In this document: piece after piece, positions 55,481 to 62,030 of the stretch
How the letters are laid out: every line of letters begins with the position of its first letter
How positions within the stretch are numbered: position 1 is the stretch's first letter
Source of the DNA: Alicyclobacillus hesperidum
GTDB taxonomy: Bacteria; Bacillota; Bacilli; Alicyclobacillales; Alicyclobacillaceae
DNA length: 64,000 nucleotides
Assembly (NCBI RefSeq): GCF_900107035.1
Contig: NZ_FNOJ01000004.1
Coordinates: forward strand, 62,001-126,000
Direction: 5' to 3'
The notes under the pieces: generated by a model
The model's input: only the letters and a program-made list of their open reading frames with translations
What the model was told of the DNA's origin: nothing
The model's database searches: none
Position numbers and translations under genes: made by a program

Positions 55481-55636
55481 TCGTTCCAGAAGGCGATATG
55501 GTTGGGCTTTTTAGGCGATTGCCCAATTTGCAATGCCAACGTCCTGGCCATGCGCACCTCTTTGGGCAAGCGCATACGATGTGCTGTGGTTGCGGATGGG
55601 CGAAAGCACCTTCCATCGGAGAACGGCACGGCGTTC

Positions 55637-55727: not shown

Positions 55728-56264
55728 ATGGTGCTCTCAAGTAAGGACCTCAGCTACCGTGAAATCATGGCGAACGCGGTCTGTGGCCGGGGCAATAAAT
55801 ATGCGCAGACGACGTACACTGTACGTCCGACGCACCGGCCCAGCACAATTGGCGGTTGCTGGGTGATGAACCATGTGTACGAAGCCGAGTTGGTTGGCGA
55901 TTATGTCGAAGTTCGTGGCCGCTTTGATATCAACGTATGGTACTCGTACAACAACAATTCAGACACCGCGATCGCGAAAGAGACCGTCACCTATGTCGAA
56001 CAAATTGCTTTGCGTGATGTAGACGACGAATGTGTACGTGACTCGCGGGAAGTTCGTGTACACGTCGTACAAAGCCCGAATTGCCTGGATGCGACCTTGA
56101 CCGGGAACGGGTCGGAAGTGTTGGTTCGCGTCGAAAAGGAGTTAGGCGTTGAAATTATCGGCCAAACGAAGTTGTGCGTCATCACAGCCGACTTGGCCGA
56201 GAAAAAAGACGTGGATTTCTTTGAGGAAGAAAGCGTGCTGGAAGAAGTCGAGATCGAAGACTGA
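55728..56264 (+). CDS. cotE: Outer spore coat morphogenetic protein CotE
   Basis: 178 residues, close to B. subtilis CotE (181). Recognisable parts are Tyr-Arg-Glu-Ile-Met-x-x-Ala-Val-x-x-x-Gly, Pro-Ser-x-Ile-Gly-Gly-Cys-Trp-Val-Met-Asn-His, Phe-Asp-Ile-Asn-Val-Trp-Tyr-Ser-Tyr and Gln-Ser-Pro-Asn-Cys-Leu, and an acidic C-terminus. CotE builds the outer coat around the forespore. ATG seven bases after AGAGGAGG (55713-55720). In Bacillus cotE lies after ymcA; here it comes before miaB and heads a ligase cluster. Confidence 0.93.
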   Translation: MVLSSKDLSYREIMANAVCGRGNKYAQTTYTVRPTHRPSTIGGCWVMNHVYEAELVGDYVEVRGRFDINVWYSYNNNSDTAIAKETVTYVEQIALRDVDDECVRDSREVRVHVVQSPNCLDATLTGNGSEVLVRVEKELGVEIIGQTKLCVITADLAEKKDVDFFEEESVLEEVEIED

Positions 56265-56282: not shown

Positions 56283-56312
56283 AATGGGGCGACGTGTCGC
56301 CCCATTCTTCTG
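56283..56312 (+). terminator. Hairpin after cotE
   Basis: Perfect ten-base arms (56284-56293 and 56296-56305) with a tight loop, then TCTTCTGT. It probably reduces read-through from cotE into the ligase genes. Confidence 0.65.
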
Positions 56313-56336
56313 TCTAGGGCACTGGGGGTGAAGCGG

Positions 56337-57482
56337 ATGGAGAGCAAGAAACGCATCGTCCTGGCATTATACGTGGATGGCCCCATTGCGAAAGATCGGT
56401 TGTTTGGCGAACAGACCAAAATGTTTGAGGAACTCACTACATATGGTGACGATTGCGGTGTCACGGTGATCGTCCTCACGCCGGGCGATTTCTCTTCACG
56501 CCGCGGTTTTCGCTTCCAATCCGGACGCTGGGTGCGTGTGTCAGGTGTCGACCCTGACATCGTACTGCGTAGATCGGGGGTATTTACGCACAAACCTGTT
56601 TCGGCTGCGCGCGAGTTAACGGAGTTGCGAAAGAGTGGGTTACTGCACACGCTACCGCGACAAAGTGGGAACAAGTGGAGTTTGTACAGTTGGCTGAGTC
56701 GCGATCCGCTTGTGCGCTGTCACCTGCCACGCACGACACTTTGCACGAGCGGCAAACAGCTGTACGCGGCACTGCAGTCGCGCATGGACGTCTACCTGAA
56801 ACCGCCAGGCGGCTCGCGAGGGGTCTCCATCTATCACCTTGAGCGTCGCGGGCGCGATGTGGTCGCTACATGGGAACGCCGCCTTGTTGACCGGACGCTG
56901 GATCAAGTCAGTTCGGAGTTTCGCCCAGAAACGGAGACCATCACGCGATCCTTGCGCAATGAGGCAGCCTGCCTGGCCTTTTGGCAGGAAACCGGATTGC
57001 GTCGCGCCATCGTCCAAGATGCGGTGCAACTGCCTCGCAAAGATGGTGCGCCGTATGACTTTCGCTGGTTGGTTTGTGACAGCGAAGATCCTGTGATTGT
57101 GGCACGCGTCGGCAGGATGGGTAGGCGTGGTGCGGTGACCACCAACATTCACACAGGTGGGCAGGCGGTTTGTGCCGAGGATCTGGTCGAACTTGCCGTG
57201 GGGACAAAGCAGAGCGATGCGGTTCTACGCACCATGGACGAGGTAGCCACTCGCATTGCGCAAAGGTTGGGCGCACGTCACGGCCCGTTCGCAGAGGTCG
57301 GGATCGATCTCGCTGTGACCGAACAGGCCGATGTTTTTGTGTTTGAAGTCAACCCTACACCCGGCAGGCGCATGTTGCGTGTACTTGATGCAGATTTGCA
57401 CCGTCTGTCACTCGAATCGCTCATTGAATATGTTATCAAAGCCGCACGGCGTCGCGGCCAAAGTGCGGGAAGGGAGTCGTGA
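56337..57482 (+). CDS. YheC/YheD family ATP-grasp ligase, copy 1
   Basis: 381 residues. ATP-grasp enzymes join a carboxylate to an amine or thiol through an acyl phosphate. The nucleotide-binding Lys lies in Val-Tyr-Leu-Lys-Pro-Pro-Gly-Gly-Ser-Arg-Gly (near 153), Asp-Phe-Arg-Trp-Leu-Val follows and the metal site is Phe-Glu-Val-Asn-Pro-Thr-Pro (near 337). YheC/YheD proteins of Bacillus are annotated as endospore coat-associated; the substrate is unknown. The ATG at 56337 is seven bases after GGGGGTG, better than a GTG at 56328. The next gene starts three bases after the stop. Confidence 0.85.
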   Translation: MESKKRIVLALYVDGPIAKDRLFGEQTKMFEELTTYGDDCGVTVIVLTPGDFSSRRGFRFQSGRWVRVSGVDPDIVLRRSGVFTHKPVSAARELTELRKSGLLHTLPRQSGNKWSLYSWLSRDPLVRCHLPRTTLCTSGKQLYAALQSRMDVYLKPPGGSRGVSIYHLERRGRDVVATWERRLVDRTLDQVSSEFRPETETITRSLRNEAACLAFWQETGLRRAIVQDAVQLPRKDGAPYDFRWLVCDSEDPVIVARVGRMGRRGAVTTNIHTGGQAVCAEDLVELAVGTKQSDAVLRTMDEVATRIAQRLGARHGPFAEVGIDLAVTEQADVFVFEVNPTPGRRMLRVLDADLHRLSLESLIEYVIKAARRRGQSAGRES

Positions 57483-57485
57483 GCG

Positions 57486-58853
57486 ATGAATGGCAAACGA
57501 GCGCAGGTGCAAATTCAAACGTTTGACAGTTCGGAGGCCGTGATTCGGACACATCCTTCGTTTGGATGCCAGAGCACACAAATGGAATGCGCCTACGGCG
57601 GGCGTAAACTGACGGTGCGCTTGGTGCCAGATGCTCGAATCCCCGTCGACACCCTCGCGGTTAGCAAAACAGCCGCCCGAAGGCTTCGCTTAGCGGCCGA
57701 CGGGTGGACGTTTTACGCCACCGTTTCGGATAGTCAAATTCGGCTTGGCCCGCTTATTGGGATTCTCGCCAATCCGCGCTGGGACAAGGCAAAACAGACG
57801 CTGCGGCCAAGCGGGCAACTCGAGGGGTTGCGTAGAATGGTCGAGATTGCCGAGGAGCAAGGGGCCCGCTGCTTCCTATTCCATCTCACTGACATAGACT
57901 TGTCAAAGGGAAATGTGACGGGTTATACGCTCGATGATGGCAAGTGGGTGCGTCGACCGTTCCCGCTGCCCGATGTCATTTACGATCAGCTGGTATCGCG
58001 AAAAATCGAACGCGATCCGAAGTTGCAAGAAAAGCGGGCCGCGCTTTCCAAAAAGTATGGCAACAAGTTTTTCAACGACGGCTTCTTCGATAAATGGGAG
58101 GTGTACGAGTGGTTGCAGGATTCCGACGTTTCCAGCCACGTTCCGGAGACGATTCGACACCGTACATGGCGTGAAGCCATCGCGTTTGTCAACCGCCACT
58201 CGATGACCTTTTTAAAACCGCTACATGGCAGTCTCGGTCTTGGCATCGCCCGCTTTGTCAGGGCTCGCGACGGCAGCGTAGCTTACGAGTTAAAGCAGAG
58301 TGCACGTTCGGTGGTGCGTGGCAAAGGAGCTTCCGCAGCGGAGGTCCTCGAGGCGTTTCGCACGCGTTTGCGTCGACGGCCGTATATTTGGCAACAGGGC
58401 CTTGCACTCGCTACTTATAAAGGCCGTCCTGTCGACATTCGCATTCTTATGCAGCGGGATGAGAGTGGCGAGTGGAAGCGCACCAAGATGTTTGCACGCG
58501 TGGCGAAGTCGGGCGATTTTACGTCGAACCTAACCACTGGCGGCGATGCGATGACGGTTGACGCGGCGTTTTCCGAATGCCTGCCGAGTGCGGCGGATCG
58601 TAGACGGGCAAAGGCGCAGATTCGACGTTTGGCAAAAGAGGTAGCCGCCGCAGTGGAGGCAGGCTCGGGTCGCACATTTGGCGAACTTGGCATCGACCTT
58701 GGCATTGATCAGCAGGGGAAGGCCTGGATCATCGAAGTTAATTCGAAACCTCGAAAGGCGCCTCGGTCGGAAAAGGGAAGGCAGGACTTGGTCGATCTAT
58801 CGTTTCGACGTCCCATTGGCTACGCGATCTATCTGGCGCAGCAATCGTCTTAA
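57486..58853 (+). CDS. YheC/YheD family ATP-grasp ligase, copy 2
   Basis: 455 residues. An N-terminal beta-rich domain (about 1-95) of the YheD type precedes the ATP-grasp core. The Lys motif is Thr-Phe-Leu-Lys-Pro-Leu-His-Gly-Ser-Leu-Gly-Leu-Gly (near 241). Val-Asp-Ile-Arg-Ile-Leu-Met-Gln follows, and the metal motif is Ile-Glu-Val-Asn-Ser-Lys-Pro (near 416). All key residues look intact, so it should be active. It is tightly linked to copy 1. The sequence is clearly diverged from copies 1 and 3, which points to a different substrate or step. Confidence 0.87.
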   Translation: MNGKRAQVQIQTFDSSEAVIRTHPSFGCQSTQMECAYGGRKLTVRLVPDARIPVDTLAVSKTAARRLRLAADGWTFYATVSDSQIRLGPLIGILANPRWDKAKQTLRPSGQLEGLRRMVEIAEEQGARCFLFHLTDIDLSKGNVTGYTLDDGKWVRRPFPLPDVIYDQLVSRKIERDPKLQEKRAALSKKYGNKFFNDGFFDKWEVYEWLQDSDVSSHVPETIRHRTWREAIAFVNRHSMTFLKPLHGSLGLGIARFVRARDGSVAYELKQSARSVVRGKGASAAEVLEAFRTRLRRRPYIWQQGLALATYKGRPVDIRILMQRDESGEWKRTKMFARVAKSGDFTSNLTTGGDAMTVDAAFSECLPSAADRRRAKAQIRRLAKEVAAAVEAGSGRTFGELGIDLGIDQQGKAWIIEVNSKPRKAPRSEKGRQDLVDLSFRRPIGYAIYLAQQSS

Positions 58854-58886
58854 GGCGGTCGTTCGCGCAAAAGGGGGGAGTAGACC

Positions 58887-60341
58887 ATGGCATACTACCT
58901 GCTCCACAACAACCAGCCCTCTGCCAAACGTTTGATTGCTCACGTGCCCGAGCTCACGCGCTACGTAGCGAGCAATCGCGTGACAGACCGGGATGTGCTC
59001 CTGCGCTGGGGAGCAGTCGACGAGAGCGATCCGGTGCAAGGCGCCGTGTTAAACAGCAAAGATGCCATTGCCCGAGTCGCGTCGCGAGCGCAGATGGCCA
59101 AGTTTTTGCGACGCGTTGGCGTGCGCGTTGCCGCCCGCACGAATCGCGAAGGGATGCCCGCATCGTTTGGCCGGCAGTATCGGATCCCATTGTTTGACTT
59201 CGAGCCGCTTGGCTGTTTCCGTTCAGACTCTGGCGTCAATTGGACGCAGACGCGCATTTCTCGCATTCATGCCTCTTTCGACGAAATTTCACTCGATGCG
59301 GACAACCAAACCAAGCGCGCGACATACTTAGCGACGCGCACGATGCATGCGCTTGGACTGGATTTCGGTCTTGTCAGTATCGGTGTTTCGGATAAAGGTT
59401 TGCTGCAAGTGCTGGACGTGAGTGCGACGCCTATCTTGGAAGGGCGTTTACTGGAGTTGTACCGCGATGCCATCACGCGGTTTGTCGAACGCGAAGAACA
59501 GGCGCGCCGCGGTGGGACGACAAACCTTGTGTTAGGTACAGACGTCGAAGTGATGTTACGCAATGCCCAAGGGAAAATGGTTCTGGCAAGCAACTATTTT
59601 CCGCGTCGCGGGCGGATTGGGTGTGACGACCGGAGCGTCAATTTCGATGGCAAGCGGTTGCCCTTGATGGAGTTGCGTCCTGCACCCGACTCGCATCCGA
59701 ACGGACTCATCTTGAATTTGCGAGCGACCATGCGCGAAGCGAGCGAGAAAATCAACCGTGCGAACGTGGAGTGGCGCGCTGGCAGCATGCCGTTTCGTCC
59801 GTATTGCACAGGCGGCCACATCCATTTTTCTGGCGTGCCACTCTCGAGCCGACTCGTGAAGGCGCTCGATCACTATGTTGGGCTGCCACTGATGGCAGTG
59901 GAAGATCGCACGCGGGCAGGATGGAGGCGTCCTAAATACGGATTTCTCGGCGACGTGCGGCGCAAGGATTACGGGGGATTTGAGTACAGAACACCGGCCA
60001 GTTTTGTGTGCAGTCAAACGGCCACGGTGGCGGCGTACCACCTGGCGCATATGGTTGCGTTACATTACCGCGATCTGCCACTGTTCGACCTTTATTCTAC
60101 GCAGACACAGGTGGCCTTCTACAATGGGCAATTGCAAACCTTGCGCCCGCTTATCCTGCGCAACATCGAGGCATTGCGGATGCACAGCGCCTACGCCCAG
60201 TACCGGGAATATGTAGAACCCCTGTTCGCCATGGTCGAAGCAGGGCAGACGTGGGATGAAACGCGAGATGTCCGGCGCGAGTGGGATGTACCTTTGGTGC
60301 GTACGACACCGGCAAAGCGCCGGCTGCGCAAGGTTCGTTGA
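58887..60341 (+). CDS. Putative amidoligase: degenerate ATP-grasp-like N-terminus and glutamine-synthetase-like COOH-NH2 ligase
   Basis: 484 residues. The C-terminal part (from about 215) matches the phiEco32-like COOH-NH2 ligase type 2 pattern: Gly-Thr-Asp-Val-Glu-Val (near 217), Gly-Arg-Ile-Gly-Cys-Asp-Asp, Glu-Leu-Arg-Pro-Ala-Pro (near 261), Gly-Gly-His-Ile-His-Phe (near 308) and Gly-Phe-Glu-Tyr-Arg-Thr-Pro (near 363). These are the metal and ATP residues of GS-like ligases. Residues 1-200 resemble the pre-ATP-grasp/ATP-grasp of RimK-like proteins, but have no Leu-Lys-Pro motif and Leu-Asp-Val-Ser replaces Glu-x-Asn, so that half is probably inactive. ATG after AAGGGGGGAG. Confidence 0.8.
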   Translation: MAYYLLHNNQPSAKRLIAHVPELTRYVASNRVTDRDVLLRWGAVDESDPVQGAVLNSKDAIARVASRAQMAKFLRRVGVRVAARTNREGMPASFGRQYRIPLFDFEPLGCFRSDSGVNWTQTRISRIHASFDEISLDADNQTKRATYLATRTMHALGLDFGLVSIGVSDKGLLQVLDVSATPILEGRLLELYRDAITRFVEREEQARRGGTTNLVLGTDVEVMLRNAQGKMVLASNYFPRRGRIGCDDRSVNFDGKRLPLMELRPAPDSHPNGLILNLRATMREASEKINRANVEWRAGSMPFRPYCTGGHIHFSGVPLSSRLVKALDHYVGLPLMAVEDRTRAGWRRPKYGFLGDVRRKDYGGFEYRTPASFVCSQTATVAAYHLAHMVALHYRDLPLFDLYSTQTQVAFYNGQLQTLRPLILRNIEALRMHSAYAQYREYVEPLFAMVEAGQTWDETRDVRREWDVPLVRTTPAKRRLRKVR

Positions 60342-60385
60342 GCAGGCTTAGGTAGACACCAGTGCAGGGAAATGAGGTTCAAGCC

Positions 60386-61666
60386 GTGAGTAAAGAGATG
60401 AATGCGGAACTGATTTGGTTTCGTCAACATGGCGCCGTTACGCCGGCTGTCTACGTGGGCAACAGGCGTCCGCCATTCAAAGGTGCGTGGCCGGCGTCTG
60501 CCAAGTTCGCGCATGTCGACGGCAGATGGCCCATCCTGCAATCACTGCCAGAAGGCATCGTCTATCGAGCGCCAACGAGGCTTGCGATGAGTGGCAAAGA
60601 CGTTCATATCGTCGGCGAGGTGTACGCGATTTTGGCCGGCGAGGGGAAAGACGGCTTTGCCGGGGCGCGCCTCAATTTTCGCGATGTGATTGAGGCAGGA
60701 TGCAAGGCGGGGGTCTTCGTATACGTCGTGCCGACCACAGGCGTCCGTTTGCATGCCCAGTGGCAAGGCTATGTCCGGTTGGGCTATCGAAGATGGATTG
60801 CCTTGCCTGTGCCGCGTCCACAGGCAGTGTACAATCGCATTCCCACCCGCGCGTTGGAGGGGCGAGCAAGTACTGTTCGGGCTCGGCAGACGCTCGCGGA
60901 ATTGGCAATTCCAATGTACAATCCGTCGTATTTTCACAAGTCGCACATCTATGACATGATCCGTCGTCATGGCTTGGATGGCAATCTTCCCGACACGCGG
61001 GGCCGGCTGACCCGAGACGCGCTTGTGGCGATGTGCAGGCGCCATCAGGCGGTATATCTAAAACCTGCCGGTGGCAGCGTGGGTCATGGGATGATGCGCA
61101 TTGATACAATGCCTCACGGATATACCGTTGCTGTGTTGAAAGATGGGCGGACAGCTCATTTTACCGCGGCGGGAGACGACGAACTCTGGCGGATCGTCCA
61201 ACGTGAGAAGGTACGAGGCCAATATGTTCTGCAGGAAGCCATCCGATTGCTCGAAGTCGACGAAAAACCCTGTGACTTTCGCGTACTACTCCAAAAAAGC
61301 GCAGACACTTGGCGCGTCGTTGGCTACGGCGTGCGCGTAAGTGGCAAAGGGCGGATCACGACACACGTGCCTAATGGAGGTTCGATTGCCAACGCCAAAA
61401 CTGTGCTCAGGCAGGCGTTTGGCGGCGATGCCTCGCAGGTCGAGGCAGAATTGGAAGTATTTGTACTGCGGGCCGCACAGGCAATCGACACCGAGTATGG
61501 TGGCCGGCTCGGCGAGATGTCGATGGATATAGGTATCGATCCAACAGGTAAGCCGTGGTTTTTTGAGGCGAATGCAAAACCCATGAAGTTTGACGAACCA
61601 CAGATTCGATCCGCTTCGTTGACAGGCGTGATCGACCGGTTGCGCTATCTGGCCGGCCACAATTGA
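60386..61666 (+). CDS. YheC/YheD family ATP-grasp ligase, copy 3
   Basis: 426 residues. The N-terminal domain (about 1-165) is unlike the others in detail. The ATP-grasp core has Val-Tyr-Leu-Lys-Pro-Ala-Gly-Gly-Ser-Val-Gly-His-Gly (near 223), Cys-Asp-Phe-Arg-Val-Leu-Leu-Gln and Phe-Glu-Ala-Asn-Ala-Lys-Pro (near 393). Catalytic residues appear intact. I prefer the GTG at 60386, eight bases after GAGG, over GTG 60362 and ATG 60398. It is the last gene of the ligase group. Confidence 0.85.
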   Translation: MSKEMNAELIWFRQHGAVTPAVYVGNRRPPFKGAWPASAKFAHVDGRWPILQSLPEGIVYRAPTRLAMSGKDVHIVGEVYAILAGEGKDGFAGARLNFRDVIEAGCKAGVFVYVVPTTGVRLHAQWQGYVRLGYRRWIALPVPRPQAVYNRIPTRALEGRASTVRARQTLAELAIPMYNPSYFHKSHIYDMIRRHGLDGNLPDTRGRLTRDALVAMCRRHQAVYLKPAGGSVGHGMMRIDTMPHGYTVAVLKDGRTAHFTAAGDDELWRIVQREKVRGQYVLQEAIRLLEVDEKPCDFRVLLQKSADTWRVVGYGVRVSGKGRITTHVPNGGSIANAKTVLRQAFGGDASQVEAELEVFVLRAAQAIDTEYGGRLGEMSMDIGIDPTGKPWFFEANAKPMKFDEPQIRSASLTGVIDRLRYLAGHN

Positions 61667-61678
61667 CACAACGTCTGG

Positions 61679-61927
61679 TCACACAAGCGGCCAGGGCAGC
61701 GCAAAGCGGCGCTTGCCTTTTGTGATGGAGCGCAGTTGGTGAAACGGTATGTAATGCCACTTGCTGTCATACACCAGGATGGCTTGATGAGCGCGGATGA
61801 TTTTGTCGATATCCGGGAAATCGCTCGCGTAGGATAACTTGTCTGGCGCGACGATGGCGCCGTCAAACCGCTCTTCCTGATACGACGTATACACTTCGAA
61901 CGTTGGGATATTCAGCTTGTCCGACAT
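61679..61927 (-). CDS. Hypothetical small protein (orphan, minus strand)
   Basis: 82 residues, no membrane segment. I do not recognise it. The sequence includes Thr-Phe-Glu-Val-Tyr-Thr-Ser-Tyr-Gln-Glu-Glu-Arg-Phe-Asp-Gly and Trp-His-Tyr-Ile-Pro-Phe. A strong GGAGG lies seven bases before the ATG on the minus strand and a promoter candidate is just upstream, so it is likely a real gene. It converges on the last ligase gene and is divergent from miaB. Confidence 0.7.
   Translation of the reverse strand: MSDKLNIPTFEVYTSYQEERFDGAIVAPDKLSYASDFPDIDKIIRAHQAILVYDSKWHYIPFHQLRSITKGKRRFALPWPLV
61695..61721 (+). terminator. Terminator candidate after the ligase cluster
   Basis: GGCAGCGC (61695-61702) pairs with GCGCTTGCC (61709-61717) with one bulged base, then TTTT. 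It lies inside the 3' end of the convergent small gene. Confidence 0.45.
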
Positions 61928-61994: not shown

Positions 61995-62030
61995 TGACAA
62001 CCGAATATACTTCGGACGGAGTGTTGAACG

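Follow-up and report, generated by a model that had tools for sequence, protein, structure and literature searches.

Why do four carboxylate-amine ligases stand in a row behind the gene of a spore coat morphogen? The question is raised by a 64,000-nucleotide stretch of the Alicyclobacillus hesperidum genome (the window; positions 62001 to 126000 of contig 8 in the 2.86-Mb genome), where cotE, encoding an outer coat morphogenetic protein of 178 amino acids with an acidic C-terminal tail (55728 to 56264, + strand), precedes three ATP-grasp ligase genes of the YheC/YheD family (YheCD-A, -B, and -C) and one COOH-NH2 ligase gene, here called LIG. Considering gene order, co-occurrence across genomes, predicted folds, invariant residues, selection, and natural gene fusions, we think it rather probable that these genes form a module that modifies coat proteins, whichever proteins these may be. 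The fuller statement, of a sporulation-stage module that modifies coat proteins covalently, presumably by aminoacylation or amidation, with LIG at its core and working together with CotE, we hold at a little under even.

The four genes follow cotE on the + strand as YheCD-A (56337 to 57482; 381 amino acids), YheCD-B (57486 to 58853; 455 amino acids), LIG (58887 to 60341), and YheCD-C (60362 to 61666; up to 434 amino acids), with gaps of 3, 33, and 20 bases between them. YheCD-A begins with an ATG at 56337, an in-frame GTG at 56328 being an alternative, and a later start near 60386 is also possible for YheCD-C. All three YheCD proteins score above the curated cutoff of PF14398 (26.8 bits), with 160.9 bits (E value, 4.3e-47), 252.3 bits (5.9e-75), and 199.4 bits (8e-59) for A, B, and C, respectively. 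LIG matches PF14395 over residues 216 to 467 with 336.2 bits (1.3e-100; curated cutoff, 25), and cotE matches PF10628 (1.9e-58) in a scan that used a longer open reading frame (ORF) starting at 55533. The original prediction of three intact YheC/YheD ATP-grasp enzymes and one COOH-NH2 ligase behind cotE agrees with these profile searches as well as with the conserved residues described below. Its description of the YheCD proteins as mutually diverged is equally apt, given pairwise identities of 23 to 28% (A/B, 28%; A/C, 23%; B/C, 24%). Elsewhere, the genome contains three further, strongly diverged YheCD genes, and a genome-wide profile search returned no second PF14395 match.

Is this arrangement peculiar to one genome? 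We scanned one genome per species for LIG relatives, took the best 80 of 506 with flanks of up to 10 kb, and added 60 regions selected from the listed, better-scoring matches, mostly one per genus; with the window included and duplicate LIG proteins removed, 129 of 141 loci were distinct. The order is not unique to A. hesperidum: in 124 of the 129 loci, cotE precedes LIG on the same strand, with either nothing or only YheCD genes in between. LIG sits directly behind cotE in 68 loci (median gap, 111 bases), and 56 loci have only YheCD genes between the two (three with extra DNA; ∼1.8 to 5.2 kb in L043, L044, and L071). A window-like order, in which cotE, two YheCD genes, and LIG are followed by one or two more YheCD genes, is found in 50 loci. 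Since the 68 loci with LIG directly behind cotE have no adjacent YheCD gene, the four-ligase row is not required. The five unlinked exceptions are L047, at a contig edge, L098, L102, L170, and L162, whose LIG is a second copy joined to YheCD. In one further genome (G331:C7:2245494-2245899; L236, L240), LIG is fragmented right behind cotE and apparently decaying.

Such adjacency might be no more than an inherited gene order without shared function. The region is indeed broadly syntenic: the usual order elsewhere in Bacilli is miaB-ymcA-cotE-LIG, then mutS- and mutL-like genes, and LIG lies between cotE and the mutS-like gene in many genomes. We give this explanation very little credence. The cotE-LIG pair is found upstream of miaB in Alicyclobacillus and downstream of ymcA in other Bacilli, and it thus stays linked across differing orders; moreover, CotE, LIG, and YheCD are found together in 10 of 19 regions outside Bacilli, with other surroundings again. 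Clustering of the neighboring ORFs revealed no candidate substrate peptide beside LIG; these clusters comprised the mutS- and mutL-like genes, other housekeeping genes, and shadow ORFs, with names assigned by reading.

Presence and absence across genomes tell a similar story. Among 398 Bacilli genomes, 203 carry LIG (88 of 145 genera), 269 carry CotE, and 262 carry YheCD, and none of the 203 LIG genomes lacks CotE or YheCD. Together with the upstream position of cotE, this bears out the coat link that had been drawn from the window alone. Fisher's exact tests gave 3e-55 for LIG with CotE and, within CotE-bearing genomes, 5e-17 for LIG with YheCD, for genomes that are related rather than independent. 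The 66 CotE genomes without LIG divide into 42 with YheCD and 24 without; Bacillus subtilis, included among 14 control genomes, has CotE and YheCD and no PF14395 match. In a quick tree of CotE sequences stripped of their tails, one branch (support of 98 in the Shimodaira-Hasegawa-like approximate likelihood ratio test) separates 126 proteins of LIG-bearing genomes from 27 of genomes without LIG, a split that fits either one loss or one gain. LIG is also present in other classes, which favors a loss in the line leading to B. subtilis.

For these other classes, we inspected 299 genomes of the phylum, 37 of which carry LIG and 41 of which carry CotE (37 above the cutoff). Removing the 11 listed Bacilli, on the assumption that none stands among the unlisted misses, left 288 genomes. 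LIG is present in 33 of these, always with YheCD. CotE is found in 20 of the 33 (E values, 1e-24 to 1e-43) versus 13 of the 255 genomes without LIG (Fisher, 5e-14; these genomes are related as well). YheCD adjoins LIG in all 19 best-scoring loci outside Bacilli (L241 to L259). Of the 20 regions read for neighborhood, one (L276) belongs to Bacilli; among the other 19, the nine without CotE beside LIG include three that are extra LIG copies. CotE homologs beside LIG and YheCD in non-Bacilli classes are those of L260, L264 to L266, L273 to L275, and L277 to L279. In clostridia, a survey published in 2012 had detected no CotE (PMC3533761).

What kind of enzyme is LIG? A structural model of the window protein, built with 63 relatives (predicted local distance difference test [pLDDT], 93.4; predicted template modeling score, 0.93) indicates two domains. 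Residues 211 to 467 (59517 to 60287, + strand) would form an apparently intact glutamine-synthetase-like COOH-NH2 ligase domain of the YbdK/PafA-like kind, as expected from PF14395. G217, D219, E221, D247, E262, R264, H311, H313, R347, R348, D356, E366, and R368, residues of catalytic type, are invariant in 64/64 rows. The nearest folds are 1tt4, a predicted glutathione synthase (Z score, 16.6), YbdK (16.0), and plant glutamate-cysteine ligase (15.2). Dop (15.1) and PafA (14.8), the enzymes acting with Pup, match over 242 to 248 residues and are tied with non-Pup ligases, counting rows less than 1 Z unit apart as ties. This likeness to pupylation enzymes is one of fold alone, and we claim no membership in that system. 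Unlike YbdK, PafA, and Dop, LIG has an added N-terminal ATP-grasp-like domain and accompanies YheCD and CotE. A sequence search of the PDB with LIG gave nothing convincing (two matches; best E value, 0.15). Thirteen remote relatives of LIG, with 23 to 35% identity, reside on viral contigs.

The presence of PafA and Dop among these neighbors, combined with the LIG-cotE linkage, would also suit a protein cross-linker, PafA-like or a transglutaminase in effect, that attaches acidic side chains of CotE through isopeptide bonds to lysines of neighboring coat proteins and leaves the YheCD enzymes to a separate task. We think this unlikely, since ligases of nonprotein substrates match LIG equally well and since YheCD in 236/236 LIG genomes examined, together with four gene fusions, argues for a common substrate. 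The fusions join LIG and YheCD in single proteins of 872 to 924 amino acids: L234 (G371), L237 and L238 (second copies in G087 and G149), and L246 (G484). Pfam places PF14395 at residues 193 to 442 and PF14398 at 633 to 872 in one of the four, and in G371 the fusion is the sole LIG, located away from cotE. Such natural fusions support joint action of the two enzymes.

The N-terminal part of LIG (residues 1 to 215), which the original prediction did not mention, has no Pfam match. Residues 1 to 205 (58887 to 59501, + strand) are nonetheless modeled as a truncated, degenerate ATP-grasp domain of the RimK/ArgX type, the closest folds being RimK (Z, 15.2 to 16.3 over 186 to 191 residues), ArgX (15.4 to 15.9), PsnB (15.1), and LysX (14.5). 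The domain spans about two-thirds of the RimK/ArgX/LysX-type enzymes, and the third that is absent would be the ATP lid. In a register set by the motif together with a short profile match (probability, 47%), the columns for the metal-ligating Asp, Glu, and Asn of ATP-grasp enzymes are not conserved: column 164 is mostly Ser, column 177 is Asp in 50/64 rows, and column 179 is a mixture of Thr, Ser, and Asn. The metal site expected of an active ATP-grasp enzyme is therefore not preserved at these columns, and given their degeneration, the most plausible reading of the domain is a dead ATP-grasp that may have been retained for binding.

RimK adds glutamate to ribosomal protein S6 and, like LysX/ArgX and the tubulin ligases, acts on acidic protein tails. 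The same RimK and LysX/ArgX folds that lie closest to LIG residues 1 to 205 are also closest to the model of YheCD-B (pLDDT, 94.2), with Z scores of 22.0 to 22.6; RimK itself, the nearest, reaches 22.6 and is covered over 276 of its 292 residues. Weak sequence matches of the YheCD profile (E values, 1e-5 to 2e-3) were to glutathione synthetase, RimK, tubulin tyrosine ligase, and TTLL7. Differences from RimK are clear nevertheless. In the N-terminal domain of LIG, roughly a third of the fold is missing, as is the metal site, and YheCD-A attains only 20.5 bits against a cutoff of 143.4 bits for the RimK family TIGR00768, to which YheCD-B, YheCD-C, and LIG are not listed as matches at an E value of 0.001. 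The YheCD proteins thus do not belong to the RimK family and, given the similar fold of YheCD-B, may still work in a RimK-like manner. The carboxylate-amine ligase nature assumed for the window proteins is upheld by family for all four and by predicted fold for LIG and YheCD-B.

Could the four ligases instead make a small peptide-like metabolite, glutathione-like or a peptide, which the spore stores or uses, with no protein being modified? Glutathione synthetase (Z, 21.6) and D-Ala-D-Ala ligases are structural neighbors of YheCD-B, as glutamate-cysteine ligases are of LIG. On the other side, the cassette conserves no other biosynthetic or transport gene, LIG remains next to cotE, and both YheCD-B and the LIG N-terminal domain are nearest to protein-tail ligases, if by small margins. 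We judge the metabolite improbable.

The catalytic residues of the YheCD proteins are preserved without exception: K155, D241-x-R243, D324, and E337-x-N339 in YheCD-A (28/28 rows), K244, D317-x-R319, D404, and E417-x-N419 in YheCD-B (42/42 rows), and K234, D305-x-R307, D389, and E402-x-N404 in YheCD-C (28/28 rows). We take these to be the lid Lys, the D-x-R, the Asp, and the E-x-N of the ATP-grasp fold, with roles assigned from general knowledge of that fold. A merely structural function would not keep all catalytic columns invariant, which makes it very unlikely that the cassette proteins are chiefly structural coat components with weak or irrelevant ligase activity. LIG is 99% identical to its counterpart in Alicyclobacillus tengchongensis and 95% identical to that of A. 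sacchari. Against A. sacchari, ratios of nonsynonymous to synonymous substitution rates (dN/dS) are 0.097 (YheCD-A), 0.049 (YheCD-B), 0.029 (LIG), 0.073 (YheCD-C), and 0 (CotE), compared to 0.008 for recA and 0.028 for miaB; these values indicate that the cassette genes are under purifying selection. Comparison with two more distant species gave saturated or infinite dS values for most genes. In a quick tree of 135 YheCD proteins, labeled by best match to the three in the window and with 40 of 132 inner branches open, A, B, and C fall mainly into separate old groups, which hold their cassette positions across Alicyclobacillaceae and related families. The genome's three other YheCD genes sit on very long branches with no placement.

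If coat proteins are modified, the tail of CotE itself deserves a closer look. The CotE of Bacillus cereus is reported to have an unstructured, negatively charged end, and CotE without this tail makes a mesh in the absence of calcium (PMC11980541). Acidic tails are present in all groups of CotE that we read, with LIG, without LIG, and outside Bacilli. An end motif, picked after the tails had been inspected, is found in 65/126 tails from LIG-bearing genomes versus 0/27 without LIG, and basic residues among the last 12 positions in 14/126 versus 12/27. This comparison omitted L043, L044, L098, and L160 (split, frameshifted, or nonadjacent), L212, L216, and CotE pieces of 140 amino acids or less (split cotE, Aneurinibacillus); L228 (G142) was scored as LIG bearing despite its LIG lying away from cotE.

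Unusual cotE loci draw attention to the tail as well. Tandem cotE pairs ahead of YheCD and LIG, seen outside the relatives of Alicyclobacillus in L117, L260, L264, and L274, have a long acidic tail in the second copy only. In A. fastidiosus (L043:1400-7115) and A. suci (L044:3660-7120), elements of ∼5.0 kb and ∼2.9 kb, respectively, separate the body of cotE from its tail. Both carry a large serine recombinase (PF00239, PF07508, PF13408), accompanied by a histidine kinase in A. fastidiosus, and in both loci an intact tail piece stands behind the element and ahead of YheCD-A. The arrangement resembles the skin and gin elements that are excised during sporulation, and our literature search yielded no title describing an intervening element in cotE. 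The tandem copies and the intact tail behind the element fit, and do not prove, modification of the CotE tail by LIG and YheCD.

A second case of interrupted cotE, at a different position, occurs in Aneurinibacillus (L103, L114, and L138), where the 3′ part of cotE alone stands before LIG, preceded by a recombinase-like ORF named by eye (513 amino acids in L114). Five genomes of family f12 (G051, G066, G094, G105, and G181) have two cotE half-matches each.

How might such a module operate? The N-terminal domain of LIG, as a dead RimK/LysX-type ATP-grasp, would bind an acidic protein tail, and its C-terminal YbdK/PafA-like domain would use ATP to activate a carboxylate that is then joined to an amine. 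The YheCD proteins, as full RimK-type ligases, would append further residues or target other coat proteins. The likeliest substrate would be CotE's own acidic tail, the charge of which reportedly restrains mesh formation, though we regard this assignment as possible at best and somewhat doubtful. Writing of amino acids onto the tail by LIG and YheCD would then set the timing and tightness with which the CotE mesh closes. Extended to many spore-formers, this would amount to a covalent "tail code" on CotE that LIG reads and YheCD help to write, and whose writer the B. subtilis lineage has lost; we offer this as speculation and consider it rather unlikely to hold in full.

Two promoter-like blocks are found upstream of cotE on the + strand: P1 (55555 to 55581), with CAC ... 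GCATACGATG, and P2 (55636 to 55665), with CACC ... GCATACCGATAG. The GCATACGATG of P1 is conserved in 7/7 close species aligned, and among 18 sequences scanned, it occurs in 11 and GCATAGGATG in 2 more. The GCATAC motif of P2 lies 72 to 86 bases upstream of cotE in 12/18 sequences scanned and is absent from this position in A. fructus, A. mali, and A. sendaiensis. Both blocks presumably resemble the mother-cell sigma-E/K promoter consensus, in which case the module would be expressed in the mother cell. The gap between cotE and the ligases contains a hairpin with a 10-pair stem and a T-rich end (56283 to 56306, + strand), a possible partial terminator. While the scan as a whole found hairpins no more numerous than in shuffled sequences, a similar hairpin is present in 12/13 sequences read, window included, with three further loci not located. 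Because little promoter space is left between the hairpin and YheCD-A, transcription from cotE probably continues into the ligases at a reduced level.

Several observations weigh against a coat-modifying module built around CotE. The hairpin stands between cotE and the ligase cassette. The fold leaves the substrate unfixed, with D-Ala-D-Ala ligases matching too. An acidic tail is present in 27/27 CotE proteins read from genomes without LIG (median acidic fraction, 0.50 versus 0.46), and a tail retained without LIG is independent of it. The tail-motif difference proves nothing, since one branch of the CotE tree splits the LIG-bearing from the LIG-lacking proteins and they thus constitute a single independent pair. 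Outside Bacilli, 13/33 LIG genomes have no CotE match, an argument against CotE being the only substrate. Nine of these belong to family f74 and two to f108, the others being G559 (fragmented) and G623 (weak LIG match); LIG may have another partner in these genomes, or CotE may have diverged past detection. Finally, in a two-hybrid study, B. subtilis YheD showed no interaction with CotE or other morphogens (PMC7911427).

On the + strand of the window, the wider order is recA, recX-like, rny, ymdB, spoVS, M19 dipeptidase, cotE, YheCD-A, YheCD-B, LIG, YheCD-C, miaB, and ymcA-like, with names taken from Pfam matches or else assigned by reading. An antisense ORF of 82 amino acids without a Pfam match lies between YheCD-C and miaB (61679 to 61927, − strand), and a similar ORF is present in 11 loci.

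How much of this is new? PF14395 and PF14398 were reportedly placed near CotE, with a guess at a coat role, by Iyer et al. (2009) and in the Pfam description; the association of CotE, YheCD, and LIG is thus already known, and the cassette is one more example. A later paper from the same group cites Iyer et al. (2009) for ATP-grasp and COOH-NH2 ligases being linked in operons (PMC4431377). B. subtilis YheC and YheD are reported to be products of sporulation genes that localize to the coat (PMC517825, PMC7911427), with a function described as not known (PMC7911427). They belong to the same Pfam family as the YheCD proteins of the window, which, unlike those of B. subtilis, form one cassette with LIG behind cotE. 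A literature search covering titles and abstract openings, with few subscription papers, found none on LIG or on ligation to the CotE tail. New here are the degenerate RimK-like domain of LIG, the modeling of its C-terminal part as an intact YbdK/PafA-like ligase, the structural closeness of YheCD-B to RimK and LysX/ArgX, the LIG-YheCD fusions, the counts of linkage and co-occurrence, and the CotE-tail hypothesis.

That most LIG-bearing Bacilli retain LIG next to cotE, and that the B. subtilis control lacks it, suggests a role for YheC and YheD, namely, in covalent modification of the coat and perhaps of CotE. The control over mesh assembly reported for the CotE tail makes the tail hypothesis directly testable (PMC11980541). 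If true, tail modification would be a bacterial counterpart, in the coat of a dormant cell, to the tail modification of tubulin and ribosomal protein S6, and if the B. subtilis lineage has lost the writer, the pathway would have been overlooked in the model organism.

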